IMG/VR virus record: IMGVR_UViG_3300037963_000715
Location: 1 to 33,303 of that record
Origin: a virus
Length of the DNA: 33,303 nt
Strand: one strand, 5' to 3'
Position 1 is the stretch's first letter, and each line of letters starts with the position of its first letter. Made by a program: the position numbers and the translations under genes. Positions 67-33,303 of this stretch are shown piece by piece. The notes beneath the pieces were generated by a model. That model was not told the origin of the DNA. It did no database searches and was given only the letters and a program-made list of their open reading frames with translations.

Positions 67-579
67 ATGGCAACACAAAAAGATATAGCTGAACACCTTG
101 ATTTATCGGTAAAGCGTGTATCTGAATTAATAAGAGACGGAATATTGCCATCAAAAAAAGGTAGAAGTCCTTTAAATATAGATGTTTGCAGGTTTGCATA
201 CATTTCTTACTTGCGAAAACTTGGTCAATACAACAAAAAGAGTGGAACTGGCGATATTGCAGAAGCTAAAACAAGATTAACACAAGCACAAGCAGATAAA
301 GCGGAGTTAGAAGTATCAGAATTAGAAGCAAAATTAATACCTGCTGAATTAGTGGCTGATACTTGGATAGATTACGTTGCAAATGCAAGGGCAAAGCTAC
401 TTGGATTGCCTTCAAGAATAGCACACCAAGTTATAACAGTTGATAAATATGCAGAAGCAGAAGAAATTATAAAAGAACAAGTGCATGAAGCACTGAATGA
501 ACTATCACAAAATGGAATACCTGAAAAATATACAAAGAGTAGTAAATCAGACCAATCAGACATGGACGCCACCGCCTAA
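67..579 (+). CDS. terminase small subunit (Nu1-like)
   Basis: Probable DNA-recognition subunit of the packaging motor. The 170-residue protein opens with a helix-turn-helix (about residues 3-30, KDIAEHLDLSVKRVSELIRD), as in the winged-helix DNA-binding part of lambda Nu1. A charged helical segment follows (about residues 60-95), and then a helical C-terminus where small terminases contact the large subunit. It is the first gene after the candidate cos site, and its 3' end overlaps the large terminase gene by 83 bases, a much longer overlap than elsewhere in the window. The family is inferred from the HTH, the size and the position next to an unmistakable large terminase. Whether it binds the TCGCGA site at the contig end is not shown by the sequence. 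Confidence 0.8.
   Translation: MATQKDIAEHLDLSVKRVSELIRDGILPSKKGRSPLNIDVCRFAYISYLRKLGQYNKKSGTGDIAEAKTRLTQAQADKAELEVSELEAKLIPAELVADTWIDYVANARAKLLGLPSRIAHQVITVDKYAEAEEIIKEQVHEALNELSQNGIPEKYTKSSKSDQSDMDATA
480..494 (+). promoter_or_regulatory. small hairpin just before the large-terminase start
   Basis: AGTGC (480-484) and GCACT (490-494) can pair around the loop ATGAA, ending two bases before the ATG at 497. It lies inside the small-subunit gene, where passing ribosomes would open it, so it could support translational coupling. The stem is only five base pairs. Confidence 0.2.
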
Positions 580-2332
580 TCTTAAAATATCTGATTGGTC
601 AGACACATATAGAAAACTTTCACCTGAAAGTTCTGCTGAAGCGGGACAATGGCGTACAGACAGATGCCCTTATCAGAAAGAAATTATGGATACTTTTAAT
701 AATCCTGATATAGAACGTATAGTGGTTATGACAAGTAGCCAAGTTGGTAAAACAGAAATATTACTTAACGCAATAGGATATTATATCGATCAAGACCCTT
801 CCCCACTGCTGATTGTGCAACCAACTTTGCAGATGGGTCAGGCATTTTCAAAAGATAGATTGTCTGCAATGATACGAGATACAGAAAAATTACGTGGCTG
901 CGTTAAAGATGCAAGAAGTAGAGATAGTGGCAACACAACTATGCACAAAAAATTTTCAGGTGGTCATTTATCAATAGTTGGTTCTAATTCTGCATCGGGA
1001 CTTGCATCAAGACCAATAAGAATTTTGTTGATGGACGAAGTTGATAGATATGAGTTATCAGCAGGAAGTGAAGGTAGTCCTATTGCATTGGCTACAGCGA
1101 GAACTAAAACTTTTTGGAACAGAAAGATATTTATGTGTTCTACTCCAACGATAAAAGGTTTATCTGTAATAGAAGCTGCTTTTGAAGAAAGCGATCAAAG
1201 ATATTATCATGTGCCATGTCCTGAATGCGGTACAAAACAGGTTTTAAAATGGAAGAATGTTGTTTGGGAAGAAGATAAACCTGAGACAGCAGCCTATGCT
1301 TGTGAAGAATGCGGTTCTGTTATTGAAGAACATAAAAAACAATATATGTTAAAGCATGGCGAGTGGATTGCATCTGCTGAAGCATCTAACACAGCAGGTT
1401 TTCATATATCTGAATTATATTCAGTTTGGTCAACTTGGGCTGATATGGCAAAAAACTTTTTAGAAGCTAAGAAAAATCCTGAAACATTAAAAACATTTAT
1501 TAATACAGCGTTGGGAGAAAGTTGGGAAGAACAAGGTGAAACAGTTGAGTATGACACTTTATTACAAAGAAGATTAAATTATGATGCTACAACTGTTCCT
1601 GAAGATGTTTTAGTTATCACAGCAGGAATTGACTGTCAAAAAGACCGATTAGAATGTCAAATTGTTGGTTGGGGTAAAAACTATGAAGCGTGGGTTATAG
1701 AATATCGTATTTTTTGGGGTGACCCGAATGCAATTAATGTTTGGTCAGATTTAGATGCGTTTTTGAAAAAGAGATTTAAAACTGAAAGCGATAGAATGAT
1801 ACCTATTTCATGTGCAACAGTTGATAGTGGTGGACATCATACAAATATGTGTTATCAATTTACAAAACCACGACAAGCAAGAAGAATTTTTGCAATAAAA
1901 GGTTTATCAACAGCAGGAAAACCAATAGCTAATAAACCAACATACGTAGGTAAAAATAAAGCGGTACTTTATGGAGTTGGAACTGATAGTGCAAAAGAAG
2001 CTATATTTGCAAGACTAGCATCTGAACCTGAAGATACTACATTGCATTTTTGTAGTGACCTTGACGAAGAATATTTTAAACAATTAACCAGTGAAAAAAG
2101 AATAACAAAGTACGTTAGAGGTAGAAAAACGCTAGTTTGGAAACAAATTAGACCAAGAAACGAAGCATTAGATACATTAGTCTATAATTTTGCTGCTATT
2201 TACATCTTAAATCCTAATTTCGAAACTATAGAGTTAAAAATTCTAAATCAAGATCAAGGATCAAGAGAAAAACCACAAAAAAGACAAAAAAAGGGCATAA
2301 ATAGGCAAAATTTTGCTACATCTTGGAAATAA
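497..2332 (+). CDS. terminase large subunit (lambda gpA family)
   Basis: ATP-driven DNA translocase and cos-cleaving endonuclease. Counting from the ATG at 497, the ATPase has a Walker-A-like loop SSQVGKTE (about residues 80-87) and a Walker B ILLMDEVD (176-183). A four-cysteine zinc ribbon, C241/C244 with C269/C272, lies between the ATPase and nuclease parts. The nuclease begins at TAGIDCQKDRLE, with the acidic residue D379 and a later TVDSGG. This order and the 611-residue length fit the GpA family. The start is uncertain between codons at 497 and 512, because no strong ribosome-binding site precedes either, and translational coupling to the small subunit is likely. The ORF cannot start later, since conserved residues follow the overlap directly. 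Confidence 0.95.
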   Translation: MNYHKMEYLKNIQRVVNQTNQTWTPPPNLKISDWSDTYRKLSPESSAEAGQWRTDRCPYQKEIMDTFNNPDIERIVVMTSSQVGKTEILLNAIGYYIDQDPSPLLIVQPTLQMGQAFSKDRLSAMIRDTEKLRGCVKDARSRDSGNTTMHKKFSGGHLSIVGSNSASGLASRPIRILLMDEVDRYELSAGSEGSPIALATARTKTFWNRKIFMCSTPTIKGLSVIEAAFEESDQRYYHVPCPECGTKQVLKWKNVVWEEDKPETAAYACEECGSVIEEHKKQYMLKHGEWIASAEASNTAGFHISELYSVWSTWADMAKNFLEAKKNPETLKTFINTALGESWEEQGETVEYDTLLQRRLNYDATTVPEDVLVITAGIDCQKDRLECQIVGWGKNYEAWVIEYRIFWGDPNAINVWSDLDAFLKKRFKTESDRMIPISCATVDSGGHHTNMCYQFTKPRQARRIFAIKGLSTAGKPIANKPTYVGKNKAVLYGVGTDSAKEAIFARLASEPEDTTLHFCSDLDEEYFKQLTSEKRITKYVRGRKTLVWKQIRPRNEALDTLVYNFAAIYILNPNFETIELKILNQDQGSREKPQKRQKKGINRQNFATSWK

Positions 2333-2354: not shown

Positions 2355-2383
2355 TTGTATATTTATATATATTTATATATAAT
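2355..2383 (+). promoter_or_regulatory. sigma70-type promoter of the accessory cassette
   Basis: TTGTAT (2355-2360) and TATAAT (2378-2383) are separated by exactly 17 bp in the gap after the large terminase. Transcription would start near 2390. The same promoter and the same 27-base leader recur at 23823-23887. The predicted +1 falls on the upstream ATG at 2390, which supports translation from the ATG at 2417 instead. Confidence 0.8.
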
Positions 2384-2416
2384 ATACTTATGTTAAACAA
2401 AAAAGGAGTAAATAAC

Positions 2417-2869
2417 ATGATAAATTCAAGACATATAACAAATAAAGAATGCGTAGAACCTAAAAACTTACCAAAAGGAAAATATCTATTAGGTTGGTCA
2501 AGATATAAAAAAGAAATCCAAATACCTTTGGAAGAAGATTTTTATATTGGTCAGGGTGCAACACTTAGCTGTATGCTTGGGCATTCACACCCATATACAG
2601 TTATAGAGATCAAGGGTAAGGTAGGTGAAAGAACTGTTAAACTTGTTGAATGTATAATAAATGAAGATGATACATATACAAATAAAAATTATGAGTATGA
2701 AAGAAATTGTATATATATAAAAGAAAATACATTAACAAAAAAATTTAATGGTCATAATTCTTATGGAAACCCAAAAATAAGAAACAAACATACAGGTAGG
2801 CTAATAACTCAAAAATGGTCTGTTTTACAAACAGGATATAGAAGGAGTTATAGTAATCCTGAAGTTTAG
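2417..2869 (+). CDS. unknown protein, first gene of the accessory cassette
   Basis: A 150-residue soluble protein with no signal peptide or membrane segment. The start is the ATG at 2417 because AAAAGGAG lies 8 bases upstream. The in-frame ATG at 2390 coincides with the predicted transcription start and has no ribosome-binding site. The middle (GQGATLSCMLGHSHPYTVIEI, counting across about residues 45-65) looks like the beta-rich core of short phage proteins with a GxGAT...TVIEI pattern, but I do not assign a family. The C-terminal third is basic and rich in Asn, Tyr and Arg. It is first in a promoter-to-terminator unit, so it is probably the most strongly expressed. Position and promoter fit an early host-takeover or anti-defence role, which is inference only. 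Confidence 0.75.
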   Translation: MINSRHITNKECVEPKNLPKGKYLLGWSRYKKEIQIPLEEDFYIGQGATLSCMLGHSHPYTVIEIKGKVGERTVKLVECIINEDDTYTNKNYEYERNCIYIKENTLTKKFNGHNSYGNPKIRNKHTGRLITQKWSVLQTGYRRSYSNPEV

Positions 2870-2890
2870 TTTTATTTTAAATTTATAAAA

Positions 2891-2907
2891 AAGGAGAGTA
2901 CATAATG
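2891..2907 (+). repeat. cassette junction repeat 1 (SD plus start)
   Basis: AAGGAGAGTACATAATG: a strong Shine-Dalgarno sequence plus the start codon of the gene at 2905. This is one of five near-identical 17-bp copies in the cassette. It is the only one not inside a preceding coding sequence. Confidence 0.85.
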
Positions 2908-3090
2908 TCAAACTTAGAACAATTAAAACAAGAAAGAACTAAATATATCAAGGCATACAGAAATTGCAGACCTTTAACTGGTCAAACTATGCAAGAATTT
3001 GAAGTAATGCAAAAAGGCTTTGCTGCAAAGTACAAAGAACTTGATAAACAAATAAAAAAAATGCAAAGGTTACAAAAGGAGAGTGCATAA
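2905..3090 (+). CDS. small unknown protein, cassette gene 2
   Basis: A 61-residue, basic, helical protein (Gln/Lys/Glu-rich, heptad-like C-terminal half). It is translated from the strong site AAGGAGAGTACATA directly before the ATG. Its last codons read Lys-Glu-Ser-Ala-stop because they are the ribosome-binding site of the next gene, with which it shares one base. No family is recognised and no membrane segment is present. Membership of the promoter-terminator cassette and the strong initiation site argue that it is real despite its size. Confidence 0.7.
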   Translation: MSNLEQLKQERTKYIKAYRNCRPLTGQTMQEFEVMQKGFAAKYKELDKQIKKMQRLQKESA

Positions 3091-3092
3091 TG
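3076..3092 (+). repeat. cassette junction repeat 2
   Basis: AAGGAGAGTGCATAATG spans the stop of the gene at 2905 and the start of the gene at 3090. Read in the upstream frame it encodes the terminal Lys-Glu-Ser-Ala. Confidence 0.85.
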
Positions 3093-3365
3093 GCAATTAA
3101 ACTTAAAAGACTACATAACAAAAATGTTTATGTTGGTAGGCACTATAACAACTACAGACATGATTGCTCAAAATCATTATATGGCTACAAAAATTTTAGG
3201 ATTAGGACAAATGATTATTATGGTGGTTGGTATGTAGAAGAAATTAGAGGTGGTATCAGAAATCAAATCTCTGATTACAGCTTATCGATGACTTTTAAAG
3301 AAGCTAAGAAGTGGTTAGAACAATATATCGAAAAATTAAATATAATAAATAAGGAGAGTACATAA
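3090..3365 (+). CDS. small unknown protein, cassette gene 3
   Basis: A 91-residue basic protein rich in Tyr, Asn and Arg in its first half (KNVYVGRHYNNYRHDC), ending in an amphipathic helix (FKEAKKWLEQYIEKL). No recognisable family or membrane segment. It starts on cassette junction repeat 2 and ends in Lys-Glu-Ser-Thr, the Thr variant caused by A instead of G in junction repeat 3. It shares one base with each neighbour. The Tyr/Arg-rich surface could suit nucleic-acid or protein binding, but nothing catalytic is visible. Confidence 0.7.
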   Translation: MAIKLKRLHNKNVYVGRHYNNYRHDCSKSLYGYKNFRIRTNDYYGGWYVEEIRGGIRNQISDYSLSMTFKEAKKWLEQYIEKLNIINKEST

Positions 3366-3367
3366 TG
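3351..3367 (+). repeat. cassette junction repeat 3
   Basis: AAGGAGAGTACATAATG at the boundary of the genes at 3090 and 3365. The A at the variable tenth base makes the upstream protein end in Thr rather than Ala. Confidence 0.85.
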
Positions 3368-3667
3368 GCAAAAAAAGTAGAGTATGAATGGCATTTTTGT
3401 TATACAGACATAGATGATACAGATTGGGAATATTTAACAAAATCTGAATATGGTACAGCTAAACAAAATTTTGAACGCACAAAAGAAATATTTGAAGAAA
3501 ACAAGCATGATAAATATTTCGAATTGGAAATATCAAAATGGATTTATGACAATCCTTGGGAACAACATAGAGAAGATTATTCAGTATATCCAAAAAGAGA
3601 TACAGATGATTTACCAAAATGGGTAAATAAAATTATCGATAAACTTTTAAATAAGGAGAGTGCATAA
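3365..3667 (+). CDS. small acidic unknown protein, cassette gene 4
   Basis: A 100-residue protein with a clear excess of acidic over basic residues (24 Asp/Glu against 16 Lys/Arg by eye) and many aromatics, including several Trp. No membrane segment, cysteine pair or catalytic motif is evident. Small acidic early phage proteins sometimes mimic DNA or bind host enzymes, and the charge is compatible with that but does not prove it. It starts on junction repeat 3 and ends in Asn-Lys-Glu-Ser-Ala written by junction repeat 4. Confidence 0.7.
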   Translation: MAKKVEYEWHFCYTDIDDTDWEYLTKSEYGTAKQNFERTKEIFEENKHDKYFELEISKWIYDNPWEQHREDYSVYPKRDTDDLPKWVNKIIDKLLNKESA

Positions 3668-3669
3668 TG
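3653..3669 (+). repeat. cassette junction repeat 4
   Basis: AAGGAGAGTGCATAATG, the boundary of the genes at 3365 and 3667, identical to repeats 2 and 5. Confidence 0.85.
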
Positions 3670-3921
3670 TGTAAGTTAAAAAAAGGTCAAGCAATTTATT
3701 ACAAAGACTGGCAAAACAATGACAAATTGATACCCGCTAGAGTGGTTAGATGCAAAAAAGCATATTGTTATATAGATGTTCTTAAACCAAATTCAATGAA
3801 TGATTGGGAAACATGGGAAGTAAATATAGAAGATTGCTTACCAACAGATCATTTTACTATAAGCAAATTTCATGAGTTTTTGGGTTATATGATTGATTGG
3901 AAAAATAAGGAGAGTGCATAA
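3667..3921 (+). CDS. small unknown protein, cassette gene 5
   Basis: An 84-residue protein with the appearance of a compact beta-barrel. KKGQAIYYKDW, then IPARVVRCKKAYCYIDV, then WETWEVNIEDCLPTDHF gives alternating hydrophobic strands and a Lys-Gly turn, as in small SH3- or KOW-like folds. That fold is a guess from pattern alone. Three cysteines outside the start region are scattered rather than paired as zinc ligands. It starts on junction repeat 4 and ends in Asn-Lys-Glu-Ser-Ala. Confidence 0.7.
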   Translation: MCKLKKGQAIYYKDWQNNDKLIPARVVRCKKAYCYIDVLKPNSMNDWETWEVNIEDCLPTDHFTISKFHEFLGYMIDWKNKESA

Positions 3922-3923
3922 TG
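3907..3923 (+). repeat. cassette junction repeat 5
   Basis: AAGGAGAGTGCATAATG, the boundary of the genes at 3667 and 3921, and the last copy before the terminator. Confidence 0.85.
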
Positions 3924-4121
3924 GCAAATTTAGAATTAATATTTGACAAAATTAAAAATGACATCGACTTAGAATTTAGCGAATGGTTAGATATGCCTGA
4001 TGTTAAAGAAGTAATGCACGAATATATTATTAAGGCACTCAATCATTACGACATTGATAATGAAACCATGCTACAACTAGAAAGCAAATTAATAGAATTT
4101 TGTATTAAAATGCTACCCTAA
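3921..4121 (+). CDS. small acidic helical unknown protein, last cassette gene
   Basis: A 66-residue, mainly helical, acidic protein (FDKIKNDIDLEFSEWL, then helices to the C-terminus), with no membrane segment or known motif. It uses junction repeat 5 for initiation. It lacks the Lys-Glu-Ser-Ala end because no further gene follows, only the terminator about 27 bases downstream. That contrast shows the KESA tails belong to the junction and not to the proteins' function. Confidence 0.7.
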   Translation: MANLELIFDKIKNDIDLEFSEWLDMPDVKEVMHEYIIKALNHYDIDNETMLQLESKLIEFCIKMLP

Positions 4122-4147
4122 CAACCTAATATATATATTTTTTTACT

Positions 4148-4179
4148 AAAGGCTCTTGATTGAGCCTTTTTTATTTTTT
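4148..4179 (+). terminator. rho-independent terminator closing the accessory cassette
   Basis: AAAGGCTC (4148-4155) pairs with GAGCCTTT (4162-4169) around a six-base loop, followed by T-rich sequence to 4179. It lies after the last cassette gene and before the head genes, so the cassette is a separate transcription unit. Confidence 0.9.
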
Positions 4180-4191
4180 GCATTTTAAATG

Positions 4192-4224
4192 TTGACATAT
4201 TACTAATGCACCTTAACTTATAGT
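4192..4224 (+). promoter_or_regulatory. possible promoter for the head genes
   Basis: A consensus -35 TTGACA (4192-4197) follows the terminator. The best -10 candidates are TAACTT (4214-4219, spacing 16, poor) or TATAGT (4219-4224, spacing 21, long). A promoter is expected here because transcription from upstream should stop at the terminator. The imperfect -10 could mean activator dependence. Confidence 0.4.
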
Positions 4225-4258
4225 ATAGATATATCTTTAACATTAATGAGGTTTTTGT

Positions 4259-4843
4259 TTGGCAAACAAATTTAATTCAGCAAATTATCCTTCACAAGTA
4301 CCTACTGAATTGCAGTTGGGAGACTATTGGGCTTGGAAAAGAGAGGATTTATCAGACGATTATCCTGTATCAACTCATTCATTATCTTATGAATTTAACT
4401 TAGTTGATGGTTCAACAGCATCTAATTTTACATTAACAGCTACAGAAAGCGGTGATACTTATTTAATCGAAACTAGCAGTACAACATCATATACAGCAGG
4501 GAATTATAATTGGATTTCTTATATAACAAGGAGTTCTGACAGTGCTAGAATTAAATTAGAGGAAGGTTTTGTTGAAATACAGTTAAATTATGCAACAACA
4601 ACTGCTTCTGTCAGAAGTCATGCAAAGATAGTTTTAGATGCGATTGAAGCTGTAATTGAAAATAGAGCCAATATCGATCAATCATCAATGTCTATAGCGG
4701 GTAGGTCTTTATCAAGAATGTCTATAGACGATTTACTTACTTTTAGAGATAGATATAAAGCTGAATATTTAAAAGAAGTCAAACAAGCAAGAATTAAAAA
4801 CAAAAGAGGGTCAGGAAATACTATTAAAGTAAATTTTGGATAA
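4259..4843 (+). CDS. head protein with gpW-like C-terminus
   Basis: A 194-residue protein between terminase and portal, where lambda has head-tail joining protein gpW. The last 65 residues (helix, then AGRSLSRMSIDDLLTFRDRY, then a charged helix) resemble the helix-hairpin-helix of gpW-like proteins. The first about 110 residues look like a beta-rich extra domain (STHSLSYEFNL, FTLTATES, ISYITRSSD). If this is a gpW homologue it is nearly three times the lambda protein's length. The start is TTG at 4259 with TGAGG seven bases upstream, and no ATG fits better. The gpW link is a pattern-level judgement; the N-terminal domain is unassigned. Confidence 0.6.
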   Translation: MANKFNSANYPSQVPTELQLGDYWAWKREDLSDDYPVSTHSLSYEFNLVDGSTASNFTLTATESGDTYLIETSSTTSYTAGNYNWISYITRSSDSARIKLEEGFVEIQLNYATTTASVRSHAKIVLDAIEAVIENRANIDQSSMSIAGRSLSRMSIDDLLTFRDRYKAEYLKEVKQARIKNKRGSGNTIKVNFG

Positions 4844-4846
4844 ATT

Positions 4847-6343
4847 ATGGCGTGGTATAACAGATTATTAGGAATTACAGAACAACCTAAGAAAAAAAAG
4901 AAGAACTTTTTTAGAAGTTATTCAGGTGCTAATACAGGAAGATTATTTGCAGATTTTCTAACTTCATCATCAAGTGCCAATGCTGAGATCAAAGATAACA
5001 TACGAATATTAAGAGATAGAGCAAGAGAATTAGCGAGAAACGATAGCTATATTGCAAGATACTTAAATCTGATGGTGTCTAATGTTATCGGTAAGCATGG
5101 CATAAGAGTTAGTGCCAAATCTAGGAATGAAGATAATTCTTTAGATATTGGTGCTAACCTGCTCATTGAAAGAGCATGGCGTGAATGGGGTCAAGTTGGA
5201 AATTGTACGACTAATGGAAGATTATCTTTTTTAGATTGTCAAAAAATATTTATTGAAACCTTATGCCGAGATGGCGAGGTATTAATAAGAAAAATAAAAG
5301 CACCCGATAGTCCTTTTGGATTTCAATTACAGTTTTTAGAAGCTGACCATTTAGACGAAAACAAGAACGAATACATGATGAAAAATGGCAACAGTATTAA
5401 AATGGGTGTTGAGGTTGATAAATATGACAAACCTGTTGCTTATCATTTATTTAAAAAACACCCTTACGACAATTACTACCCAAAACCAACGCAAGAATAT
5501 ATTAGAGTACCTGCTGATGAAATAATTCATGCTTATTTACCGCAAAGAGCAGAACAAACAAGAGGGGTTTCTTTAGTTTCTACTGCTATGGCAAATGTAA
5601 AAATGTTAAATGGATATTTAGAAGCGGAAATTGTAGCAGCTAGAGTTGGTGCTTCTAAAATGGGGTTTTTTGTAAGTCCTGATGGAGATGGATACGTTGG
5701 TGATGGAGAAATGGAAGATCAATTTAATCCAACAATGAACGCACAAGCAGGTGTATTTGAACAATTACCTAGTGGTATGGATTTCAAAGCATTTGACCCT
5801 AGTCACCCAACATCTGCTTTTGATAGTTTTACAACTAGCGTATTAAGAAGTATCGCATCAGGTTTAAATATTTCATATCATTCGCTTTCTAATGACCTTA
5901 CAAGTGTCAACTATAGTAGTATCAGGCAAGGTAGTTTGGAAGATAGAAGTATGTACCAAATTTACCAACAGTTTGTAATTGAACATTTTATTAATCCTGT
6001 TTTTCAGTCATGGTTAGAAATGGCAATATCAACTGGTTATATAAACTTACCAATTAATAAATTTGATAAGTTTGCTAAATCTATTTCATATATTCCAAGA
6101 AGTTTTGCTTGGATTGACCCTCTAAAAGAAATGCAAAGTAATGTAATAGGTTTGCAAAATGGAACTGTAACCTATGCAGATATTGCAGCAACTTATGGAC
6201 GAGATGTTGAAGAATTATTTGAACAACATCAAAAAGAAGTAGAACTAGCCAAACAATATAATATTGAAATGGCATATCAACCATTTGGTGCTACTAAATT
6301 ACCAGTAGAGCCAAATATTGAAGGTGGTGAAGAAGATGCCTAA
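4847..6343 (+). CDS. portal protein (lambda gpB family)
   Basis: Forms the dodecameric ring at one capsid vertex through which DNA is packaged and to which the tail attaches. Recognisable lambda-type features include the N-terminal helix with RARELARNDSYIARYLNLM (about residues 60-80), the following SNVIGKHGIRV strand, the LEADHLDENKN loop, and the stem/clip region with RGVSLVSTAM. The 498-residue length is typical. It starts three bases after the gpW-like gene. Its 3' end overlaps the protease-capsid gene by eight bases. Lambda's portal is proteolytically trimmed; nothing here indicates whether this one is. Confidence 0.93.
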   Translation: MAWYNRLLGITEQPKKKKKNFFRSYSGANTGRLFADFLTSSSSANAEIKDNIRILRDRARELARNDSYIARYLNLMVSNVIGKHGIRVSAKSRNEDNSLDIGANLLIERAWREWGQVGNCTTNGRLSFLDCQKIFIETLCRDGEVLIRKIKAPDSPFGFQLQFLEADHLDENKNEYMMKNGNSIKMGVEVDKYDKPVAYHLFKKHPYDNYYPKPTQEYIRVPADEIIHAYLPQRAEQTRGVSLVSTAMANVKMLNGYLEAEIVAARVGASKMGFFVSPDGDGYVGDGEMEDQFNPTMNAQAGVFEQLPSGMDFKAFDPSHPTSAFDSFTTSVLRSIASGLNISYHSLSNDLTSVNYSSIRQGSLEDRSMYQIYQQFVIEHFINPVFQSWLEMAISTGYINLPINKFDKFAKSISYIPRSFAWIDPLKEMQSNVIGLQNGTVTYADIAATYGRDVEELFEQHQKEVELAKQYNIEMAYQPFGATKLPVEPNIEGGEEDA

Positions 6344-22964: not shown

Positions 22965-23404
22965 TGATTGCCAAGATCAAGGAAATGTTACTTCGGCATG
23001 AAGGTTTGCGACTATTTCCGTATCAAGACCATTTGGGATACCAAACTATAGGCATTGGGCGTTGTATTGAAAAAATAGGTATAACAGAAGATGAAGCTAT
23101 GTATTTACTAGCAAATGACATAAAAAGGGTTGAAGATAATTTAGATAAAAATTTTGGTGCTTGGCGTACATTTCCTGAAAAAGCTAGATTAGTTTGTATT
23201 GATATGACCTTTCAAATGGGTATTACAGGTTTTATGGGTTTTAAACAAACAAGGCAACTCATGCAAGATGGGTTATGGCTAGAAGCCAGTGAAGAAATGT
23301 TGCGTAGCAAATGGGCGACACAAACTCCGCATCGTGCATTATACAATTCAAGACAAATAGCGTTGTGTCATAATGGCAAAGACAACGGAAGACCATCAAA
23401 ATAA
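22964..23404 (+). CDS. endolysin, T4-type lysozyme (GH24)
   Basis: A 146-residue muramidase that cuts the peptidoglycan glycan chain. The catalytic triad is visible: Glu13 (RHEGLRLFPYQD), Asp22 and Thr28 (YQTIGIGR). The spacing 9 then 6 is identical to T4 lysozyme's E11-D20-T26. Later family landmarks include FPEKARLVCIDMTFQMGITGF (about 71-91) and the C-terminal WATQTPHRA. No signal peptide or signal-anchor helix is present, so release depends on the holin. The last 32 bases overlap the nuclease gene. Confidence 0.92.
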   Translation: MIAKIKEMLLRHEGLRLFPYQDHLGYQTIGIGRCIEKIGITEDEAMYLLANDIKRVEDNLDKNFGAWRTFPEKARLVCIDMTFQMGITGFMGFKQTRQLMQDGLWLEASEEMLRSKWATQTPHRALYNSRQIALCHNGKDNGRPSK

Positions 23405-23819
23405 TTCAAGACTTGGTGCATTAGGCGAAAGTTTTGTGCAAACATTCTTGCTTGAATATTGCGATTGGTGTTATCCTACTCAGGAGAAACACCCCGCAGA
23501 CTTATTAGTAGAATTAGGGTCTGCAAAATATACAATACAAGTTAAATCAAGAAGGGAAACCAAAGAAGGTAAATATGTTTTTGCTGTTGAAAATTCTAGA
23601 GCATTATCAGAAGTTTATAAGCAATATCATTGCGATATTCTTGCTTTTGTTTTCTTTGGTGAACTTGGAAAACATATCAAGTTCCAACCAAATAACAGTA
23701 CGCAACAGTATTACACCTTTACTAAAGAAATTATAACTCCAACCTTAGAACTTGATAGCTTTAAAGAAACCCTAGATACGTTAAGTTCTGTACCAATAAT
23801 AAATCCACTATTAAAATAA
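23373..23819 (+). CDS. PD-(D/E)XK nuclease-like protein (QxK variant)
   Basis: A 148-residue protein with the PD-(D/E)XK core: Glu19 in LGALGESFVQTFL, Asp43 in HPADLLVEL, and Gln56-x-Lys58 in YTIQVKSRRE, followed by a helix and CDILAFVFFGEL. The Gln in place of the usual Glu/Asp occurs in Mrr-, VRR-NUC- and some homing-endonuclease relatives. It could be a resolvase, a homing-type nuclease or an attack enzyme on competitor DNA. It overlaps the lysozyme gene by 32 bases, is the last gene before the second strong promoter, and so is probably expressed late. Confidence 0.7.
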   Translation: MAKTTEDHQNNSRLGALGESFVQTFLLEYCDWCYPTQEKHPADLLVELGSAKYTIQVKSRRETKEGKYVFAVENSRALSEVYKQYHCDILAFVFFGELGKHIKFQPNNSTQQYYTFTKEIITPTLELDSFKETLDTLSSVPIINPLLK

Positions 23820-23822
23820 TAC

Positions 23823-23851
23823 TTGTATATTTATATATTTATGTATATAAT
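23823..23851 (+). promoter_or_regulatory. sigma70-type early promoter, second copy
   Basis: TTGTAT (23823-23828) and TATAAT (23846-23851) with a 17-bp spacer, in an AT-rich context matching the promoter at 2355-2383. The same 27-base leader beginning ATGTTAAA and carrying AAAAAGGAGTAA follows. It probably drives the early region. Confidence 0.8.
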
Positions 23852-23884
23852 ACTCTCATGTTAAATAAAAAAGGAGTAATTAAC

Positions 23885-24091
23885 ATGAAACAAGAAAATG
23901 TAATACAAGAACTAAAATCAGAAATAGAATTATTACAAGATCAAAAAAAATCTTTGCAATCTAGACAAAAGGGTATGGCAGATAGAATAATTGATCTTGC
24001 AGATAGTATAAAAAAGTATAACCAAGAAATTAACAGTATCATTGAAAAAATAGAAATACTTCAAAATCAATTAAAAAAAGGGGGTGAATAA
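23885..24091 (+). CDS. small coiled-coil protein, first early gene
   Basis: A 68-residue, highly charged protein that is essentially one coiled coil (ELKSEIELLQDQKKSLQ, then IIDLADSIKKYNQEI and IIEKIEILQNQLKK) with hydrophobic residues at heptad spacing. The start is ATG 23885, eight bases after AAGGAG; the in-frame ATG at 23858 falls on the predicted transcription start. First position behind a strong promoter suggests high early expression. Function unknown. Confidence 0.7.
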   Translation: MKQENVIQELKSEIELLQDQKKSLQSRQKGMADRIIDLADSIKKYNQEINSIIEKIEILQNQLKKGGE

Positions 24092-30085: not shown

Positions 30086-30592
30086 ATGATAGAACTTCCA
30101 AATAAAAAATATAGAACAATTTATGCTGACCCTGCATGGAATGAAGTGGGTGGCGGGAAAATAGTTAGGGGTGCTAATAGACATTATAGTTTAATGAAAA
30201 CAGAAGATATAAAAGCACTACCAGTAGCAGAAATAGCTGATGATAATTGTTGGTTATATTTATGGGTTACTAATAATTTTTTAAAAGATGGTTTATCTGT
30301 AATGGAAGCATGGGGTTTTAGATATGTAACTAATTTTGTATGGACAAAAGACAGATTTGGTATTGGTTACTATTTTAGAGGACAACATGAATTATGTTTG
30401 TTTGGTGTAAAGGGTAATCTAAAACCCAAACATAGGAATATTAGTAGCGTACTAAATGTTCCAAAAACAAAACATTCTAGAAAACCTAAAGAAGCAAGAG
30501 ATAAAATTCAACACATGAGTTATGAGCCAAGAATAGAATTATTTGCTAGGGAAAGAGTAGAGGGTTGGGATTGTTGGGGAGATGAAGTATGA
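30086..30592 (+). CDS. MT-A70 adenine-N6 methyltransferase, copy 1 (DPAW)
   Basis: A 168-residue protein of the MT-A70 family. After LPNKKYRTIYA comes DPAW (residues 15-18), a variant of the catalytic DPPW. Family landmarks follow: WLYLWVTNNFL, NFVWTKDRFGIGYYFRGQHELCLFGVKG, then RKPKEARDKIQ and ELFARERVEGWDCWGDEV. It would methylate adenine in DNA, perhaps to evade host restriction or to mark phage DNA. It overlaps copy 2 by four bases (ATGA). Pro-to-Ala in the motif may lower or alter activity; many phage enzymes of this type still work with DPPW variants. Confidence 0.85.
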   Translation: MIELPNKKYRTIYADPAWNEVGGGKIVRGANRHYSLMKTEDIKALPVAEIADDNCWLYLWVTNNFLKDGLSVMEAWGFRYVTNFVWTKDRFGIGYYFRGQHELCLFGVKGNLKPKHRNISSVLNVPKTKHSRKPKEARDKIQHMSYEPRIELFARERVEGWDCWGDEV

Positions 30593-31131
30593 AAAGTTTA
30601 GTTGGTTTACCTAATAAAAAATACAATACAATAGTCCTTGATCCACCTTGGAATATTACAATGGGTGCAATTCCAAAAAAAAGAAGACCAAACACAAAAA
30701 CAAAATTAGATTACCCAACAATGACTTTAAATGAAATTAAGGCAATACCAATAGGAGAAATAGCAAATTTAGGCTGTCATGTATATACATGGACGACCAA
30801 CAAAATGCTTCCATATACATTTGATGTATTAAAGTCTTGGGACGTAAATTATCACTTAACTTTAGTTTGGACAAAACACAATGGCATGACACCAAACTTT
30901 GCTTATAAATTTGCTACTGAATTTTGTTTACTTGGGTTTTATAAAAAACCTATGCAAAAATTTAAAAGATGCGGAAAGTTAAATTGGATAAGCACTAACG
31001 CACCAAGAAAACACTCTACAAAACCACAAGAATTTTTTGATTTAGTAGAAGAAATGTCGCCTGACAATTATTTAGAGATGTTTGCTAGAAATAAAAGAGA
31101 TGGTTGGGACGTTTGGGGTAATGAAGTATGA
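30589..31131 (+). CDS. MT-A70 adenine-N6 methyltransferase, copy 2 (DPPW)
   Basis: A 180-residue paralogue of copy 1 with the canonical DPPW (residues 18-21). Both share the start LPNKKYxTI, the TWTTNK/LWVTNN strand, the VWTK motif, HSxKP, and the end GWDxWGxEV. Even the DNA around the stops is alike (ATGAAGTATGA in both). One active and one variant copy side by side recalls heterodimeric MT-A70 enzymes, but the two could equally have different target sites. No target-recognition domain beyond the compact core is visible. Confidence 0.88.
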   Translation: MKSLVGLPNKKYNTIVLDPPWNITMGAIPKKRRPNTKTKLDYPTMTLNEIKAIPIGEIANLGCHVYTWTTNKMLPYTFDVLKSWDVNYHLTLVWTKHNGMTPNFAYKFATEFCLLGFYKKPMQKFKRCGKLNWISTNAPRKHSTKPQEFFDLVEEMSPDNYLEMFARNKRDGWDVWGNEV

Positions 31132-33264: not shown

Positions 33265-33303
33265 CGGGTCCTTTCTGTTGGTCTACTATGGGTTATTCGC
33301 GAC
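33265..33303. other. right contig end with the terminal 13-bp repeat
   Basis: A non-coding 39-base tail ending in GGTTATTCGCGAC (33291-33303), identical to positions 2-14. The bases before the repeat differ from those at position 1, so the match is exactly 13 bp. See the left end for the cos interpretation. Confidence 0.8.

Follow-up and report, generated by a model that had tools for sequence, protein, structure and literature searches.

A moron is a promoter-gene-terminator unit inserted where related phages have two adjacent genes, from which it differs in base composition. Accessory 'moron' loci are discussed in PMC7067206. In archaeal viruses, diverse early anti-defence genes are united by one strong early promoter, counter-defence has been shown for some of them, and promoter-based guilt by association has already been used to predict anti-defence genes (PMC11065993).

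The segment of the window (the whole 33.3-kb stretch of DNA analyzed here) that separates the terminase gene from the head-operon promoter is very probably an exchangeable, moron-like cassette of early genes in a dedicated slot. The slot has defined boundaries and conserved signals, its contents are exchanged among relatives, and its cargo belongs to a common pool. In its architecture the cassette appears to be a moron: like the morons of lambdoid and other temperate phages, it is inserted between genes that are adjacent in relatives (44 of 87 junctions are empty), it has its own predicted promoter and terminator, as do all 43 filled slots, and its G+C content (28.4%) differs from that of its neighbors (34.8%). 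Unlike those morons, the cassette is found in a phage family that is probably lytic, it has its promoter and cargo in common with the phage's own early operon, and it occupies a fixed slot that has received different cargo again and again.

In logic, the closest parallel is provided by the early anti-defence regulons of archaeal viruses. In both cases diverse small early genes are tied together by a conserved promoter rather than by protein homology, and the early-promoter sequence is repeated in one genome, here in two copies (at 2355 and 23823). The promoter of the cassette, however, is of the bacterial sigma70 type, one of its copies lies inside the late region, and counter-defence, which was shown for some of the archaeal genes, is here a candidate role by analogy. 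As in the P2/P4 antiviral hotspots, variable accessory cargo is found in otherwise conserved phage genomes, but the hotspots, as presented in excerpts of PMC9122126, hold antiviral systems of phages and satellites, whereas the slot holds small early-operon genes. With subgroup V of the CRP-822-type phages, as presented in excerpts of PMC12629253, the window shares related packaging genes in the same order, a low G+C content and SAR86 as the predicted host; the TerL-gpW slot, however, is not described in those excerpts, and three deposited roseophages of the group lack it.

The window is an ocean phage genome with a G+C content of 33% in which the main genes are all oriented rightward. The sequence GGTTATTCGCGAC is present at both window ends (1-14 and 33290-33303), many relative contigs start at the same base as the window, about 67 nt upstream of terS, and a second type of contig end among the relatives is GGTAATTGGACAG. 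The window ends resemble cohesive ends of the lambda type, and the genome they enclose is therefore probably complete from cos to cos. The left border of the slot is the gene for the terminase large subunit, TerL, of the GpA type (497..2332, plus strand; Pfam PF05876/PF20454, PHROG 15), and the right border is the gene for a gpW-like head-tail joining protein (4259..4843, plus strand; PHROG 5774, E=9e-33), which is followed by the portal gene (4847-6343; PF05136). The best TerL matches among named phages in the annotated phage collection were CRP-822-type roseophages (48-49%), and the order TerS-TerL-gpW-portal-capsid is common to the window and the CRP phages, suggesting on both grounds that the window phage is of the CRP-822 type. 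Two neighboring MT-A70 methyltransferase-like genes, the first of which is a Pfam match, were observed at 30086-31131, and relatives have one, both or none of them.

According to excerpts of PMC12629253, integrase is absent in almost all members of the CRP-822-type family, which is probably lytic, and the predicted host of subgroup V is SAR86, which agrees with the presence of a relative in the genome of a single SAR86 cell. In a general view of the window ORFs no integrase was noticed. The window phage is probably lytic, and SAR86 is its likely host. The relative, represented by L214/L228/L229, was found on a 72.7-kb contig of the SAR86 single-cell genome AG-390-L11; its slot is empty, and from about 50.3 kb onward the phage joins SAR86 chromosomal genes (icd, clpS, clpA and others, recognized by eye). 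The join is explained either by a chimera made during amplification or by a prophage, even though the family is called lytic.

Between the TerL stop codon (2332) and the gpW-like start (4259) lie a promoter, six rightward genes and an intrinsic terminator, followed by a separate head-operon promoter, which confirms at the sequence level the arrangement described in an earlier note on this DNA. The slot promoter (2355..2383, plus strand) consists of a -35 element, TTGTAT (2355-2360), a 17-nt spacer and a -10 element, TATAAT (2378-2383), with a transcript start predicted near 2390. The sole other copy of its 43-nt pattern in the window is at 23823-23865, with none expected from shuffled sequences. 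This copy and its leader (23823..23888, plus strand) are at the head of the early/replication operon and match the promoter and leader of the slot with 88% identity over 66 nt (E=2.7e-18). In relatives, too, the promoter and leader precede the replication operon. As a near copy of the promoter before the replication operon, the slot promoter is of the early type, as the earlier note had proposed. A generic sigma70 scan was uninformative, detecting fewer sites than in shuffled sequences and missing the slot promoter, because the -35 element matches at three of six positions.

The leader of the cassette, ATGTTAAACAAAAAAGGAGTAAATAAC (2390..2416, plus strand), has a possible start codon at the predicted 5' end of the transcript, in the frame of the first gene, g1, followed by the g1 Shine-Dalgarno (SD) sequence. 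This leader type was found in 36 of the 43 filled slots and also at early-operon heads; in the phage family it is present in two places, the slot and the start of the early/replication operon, immediately behind the gene at 23373-23819. Three matches in the leader scan (L121, L128 and L132) were without relation to the phage family. In the leaders at 2390 and 23858 an ATG is located at the predicted 5' end, usually in frame with an SD-led start 24-30 nt downstream, and a second, leaderless start at the leader ATG is possible. A reading of the leader as a fused N-terminal peptide was dropped: most leader types keep the frame, with the ATG 24, 27 or 30 nt upstream, but L138, L144 and the L037-type leader do not.

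The intrinsic terminator (4148..4179, plus strand) consists of the stem AAAGGCTCTTGATTGAGCCTTT (4148-4169) and a T-tract extending to 4179, and the window contains no other exact copy of it. The same stem was found in 40 of the 43 filled slots, the other three having a different intrinsic terminator, and in none of the empty ones. Further downstream, the conserved head-operon promoter region (4192..4237, plus strand) includes TTGACA (4192-4197) and a palindrome-like site, TAGATATATCTT (4226-4237). TTGACA precedes gpW in all 43 filled and in 41 of 44 empty junctions, and the palindrome in 43/43 and 40/44, respectively. In nearly all junctions, at 4192-4258 in the window and at the equivalent position in relatives, TTGACA is followed by the palindrome AGATWWATCT before gpW, and the two elements are a candidate regulated late promoter with its operator.

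The six genes, all on the plus strand, encode small proteins. The product of g1 (2417-2869), 150 aa from the SD-led start or 159 aa from the ATG at 2390, is basic (pI 9.3) and an orphan, with no match in Pfam or PHROG and no relative in IMG/VR. The g2 product (2905-3090; 61 aa) is predicted to be helical or coiled-coil, and the g3 product (3090-3365; 91 aa) has a pI of 9.7. The proteins of g1-g3 are basic, and those of g4 (3365-3667; 100 aa, pI 4.9) and g6 (3921-4121; 66 aa, pI 4.3) are acidic. The AF2 model of g4 reached a pLDDT of 76, and the fold search with it gave no confident or meaningful match. For g5 (3667-3921; 84 aa) the AF2 model (pLDDT 84) has Tudor domains as its best fold matches in the PDB (E about 0.01), with viral fold matches likewise at E about 0.01, and the protein is predicted to be a binding module with a small Tudor/SH3-like beta barrel.

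Each of g2-g6 is opened by the sequence AAGGAGAGTRCATAATG, which at three or fewer mismatches had six matches in the window, five of them in the cassette, against 0.59 expected. This arrangement is similar to the start-associated sequences of cluster K mycobacteriophages, short RBS-containing repeats directly upstream of unrelated genes (PMC3203893), but the sequences are unrelated (GGGATAGGAGCCC against AAGGAGAGTGCATAATG) and most copies of the cassette repeat also overlap the preceding stop codon. Use of the junction repeat as a family-specific marker was dropped, the matches of an IMG/VR scan being mostly in another phage type.

No virion family was matched by g1-g6 in Pfam or PHROG, in keeping with the statement of the earlier note that the six proteins resemble no virion part. 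Comparison with Pfam, PHROG and PADLOC gave no convincing family match of any kind and no anti-defence family above the curated cut-offs, and the annotated phage collection contained no match to the six proteins. Twenty-five other slot cargo representatives likewise had no convincing anti-defence family match in Pfam and PHROGs. Two weak matches among the six genes were rejected. Assignment of g5 to Tad2 rested on PF11195 at E=0.009 and 16.9 bits, against a Pfam cut-off of 25; five g5 homologs lack this match and the predicted Tudor/SH3-like fold disagrees with it. The match of g2, a short helical protein, to Cas2 in PADLOC (E=0.0035, 15.6 bits) was treated as chance. No catalytic domain was seen in the cassette proteins, which fits small binding inhibitors. 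The dN/dS ratios of g2, g3 (0.31) and the closest g5 pair were 0.25-0.31, indicating that these are maintained genes, and that of a more distant g5 pair was 0.58. No second contig spanning the six-gene content was found, and this content is known from one contig.

The slot was compared across 80 IMG/VR relatives (TerL 81-85%) and further contigs collected by leader, early flank and genome contigs, which together with the window and three cultured roseophages gave 87 non-redundant TerL-gpW junctions, 44 of them empty and 43 filled. Empty junctions of close relatives measure 79-93 nt and contain the head promoter as their sole content, and the TerL-gpW spacing is 0-4 nt in the Roseobacter phages CRP-823, CRP-811 and CRP-406, so the flanking genes are normally adjacent, as the earlier note had supposed. 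A -10 hexamer and an intrinsic terminator are present at the sequence level in all 43 filled junctions, followed by the TTGACA head promoter, and none of the 44 empty junctions contains the leader or the terminator. The description of the segment as a self-contained accessory cassette is borne out; furthermore, the order of the six genes is not conserved in relatives, a comparison by which that description could have failed.

The cargo of the slot comprises about 31 unrelated families. Most filled slots hold one gene; the six genes of the window are the extreme. Different cargo was found between flanks that are 97-99% identical (pairs L085/L072 and L087/L102), and in one pair with equally similar flanks (L065/L102) one slot is empty. 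At least 18 switches between the empty and the filled state were counted on the flank tree, 11 of which are forced by strongly supported branches. In the near-identical pairs the insert extends exactly from the TerL stop codon to the head promoter, and flank comparison indicated the replacement of a short stretch rather than target duplication. Neither the six genes nor the 25 other cargo representatives matched a nuclease, integrase or transposase. Weak matches of slot cargo to HTH_26, Phage_scaffold and a clamp loader, each in single members, were set aside. The slot proteins of L016, L074 and L077 have unlike N-termini and a similar C-terminal tail (like ESVIATDVEF), which suggests recombination within cargo genes or a functional tail. 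In L088, L103, L112, L124 and L127, TerS and TerL are strongly diverged (TerL 58%), gpW is 80-87% identical, the downstream genes are the same and the slot leader is present, indicating that the terminase pair was exchanged beside the slot.

Cargo homologs outside the slot were detected in the family's DNA for six of the 31 families (E<1e-4), in every case in an early-operon head and nowhere else. Early heads make up 6.3% of the searched bases, and the probability of all six families falling there by chance is about 6e-8, a figure that presumes independent families and representative searched DNA. For the other 25 families, a search of DNA that included a few dozen early heads gave no homolog beyond the slots. 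In relatives, the head of the early/replication operon was the sole location of homologs of g2, g3, g4 and g5. Homologs of g2 (48-50% identity) are the first early-operon gene in L086, L098, L099, L115 and L131, and divergent homologs of g4 (24-29% over the alignment) are in the early heads of L196/L197, L144 and L111. A g3 homolog with 82% identity is the first early-operon gene in L208/L182; the lysozyme and exonuclease of L208 are 46% and 40% identical to those of the window, a difference which points to recent horizontal movement of g3. Homologs of g5 (29-73% identity) were found in the early heads of G014/MED769, L135, L198, L184, L172, L170 and L203. In G014/MED769 g5 is the second early-operon gene (80% DNA identity), the leader of its operon is 90% identical to the slot leader of the window, and the slot of this phage is itself empty.

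Homologs of g6 (59-78% identity) are located in early-type small-gene operons of L248-L253, which are unrelated phages. No core gene of the window's phage family was detected in the stretches of these contigs that were analyzed, and one of them, a 73.9-kb record, has a terminase of a different type. Some of the g6 homologs lie beside homologs of the window early genes e24658 and e24249. Early-type operons that share genes with the family's early head in this way suggest a pool which extends across phages. The base composition of the cassette fits the early head (29.8% G+C) and not the flanks. Beyond what the earlier note had claimed, both the cargo and the expression signals are those of the phage's own early-operon head, and the origin of the cargo in this pool is the new point of the present analysis. 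The segment therefore reads as a second socket for early genes in this phage.

A classical prophage moron, expressed in the lysogen for the benefit of the host (conversion or superinfection exclusion), would likewise have an autonomous promoter and terminator, an insertion point between genes adjacent in relatives and a deviating G+C content, and the SAR86 single-cell contig that joins a phage to host DNA means that some relatives may be lysogenic. However, no integrase was noticed in the window ORFs, the family is almost entirely integrase-free and probably lytic (excerpts of PMC12629253), and the promoter and cargo belong to the phage's own early operon, which makes this explanation unlikely. 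The absence of nuclease, integrase and transposase matches in the six genes and the 25 other representatives, together with flanks that indicate short-stretch replacement instead of target duplication, argues against an independent mobile element (a homing endonuclease unit or a satellite-like or transposon-like insertion); such an element is very unlikely, even though presence and absence at one exact site in many genomes is what it would produce.

Accessory packaging or head-assembly genes that are late, virion-related and native to the locus might be expected from the location between the terminase and the head-tail joining genes. This possibility is already largely refuted and must be considered extremely unlikely, as the six genes are missing from half of the junctions and other genes are present in the rest, the cassette has its own terminator and an early-type promoter, no virion family was matched, and the homologs are in early operons. 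The restriction of the six-gene content to one contig could, finally, reflect an assembly chimera in which a fragment of an early operon was fused to the TerL-gpW junction. This is scarcely credible, given that the terminator and head promoter of the slot are correctly placed, as in 42 other filled slots, and that the early head of the window is intact, different from the cassette and repeated in contig L162.

Under the preferred reading, an exchangeable early-gene cassette in a dedicated slot, the identity and position of the promoter suggest that the cassette is expressed early. Since the slot promoter copies the early promoter, host RNA polymerase would transcribe the cargo at the same time as the replication operon and well before the head genes. 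The cassette terminator would halt this early transcript ahead of the head genes and the head operon would restart from its own promoter, so that the cargo would leave the assembly genes undisturbed. The cargo would be drawn from a pool of small early-head genes that is found in both the phage family and unrelated marine phages. The promoter-leader, as the sequence that marks both sites, is a plausible recombination handle between the early head and the slot, and exchange may proceed via the leader.

Early-operon heads in phages generally serve host subjugation. The cargo has an early-type promoter and consists of small, dispensable genes that turn over rapidly, and on these grounds the disarming or redirecting of the host, by counter-defence or takeover, is its likeliest role; this functional step, taken alone, has about an even chance of being correct. 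The slot probably acts as a socket for exchangeable genes of host takeover or anti-defence.

With this analysis, six anonymous genes become a system that can be tested. Any metagenome can be searched for the slot and the leader, and the contents found there would be candidate early effectors in phages of largely uncultured hosts. A socket that is insulated and employs the early promoter a second time would allow a compact phage to add early genes with the replication operon untouched and the head operon unbroken. If the anti-defence reading is true, the cassette would be a bacterial-phage counterpart of the promoter-sharing gene sets of archaeal viruses (PMC11065993). Tentatively, and with somewhat less than an even chance, one promoter-leader may mark both the early-operon head and a terminator-insulated socket in the late region, with cargo moving between the two sockets and between unrelated phages by means of the shared sequence. 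If this is true, a leader scan would list a large and mostly undescribed set of counter-defence genes, the targets of which would be in SAR86, an uncultured and abundant marine host.
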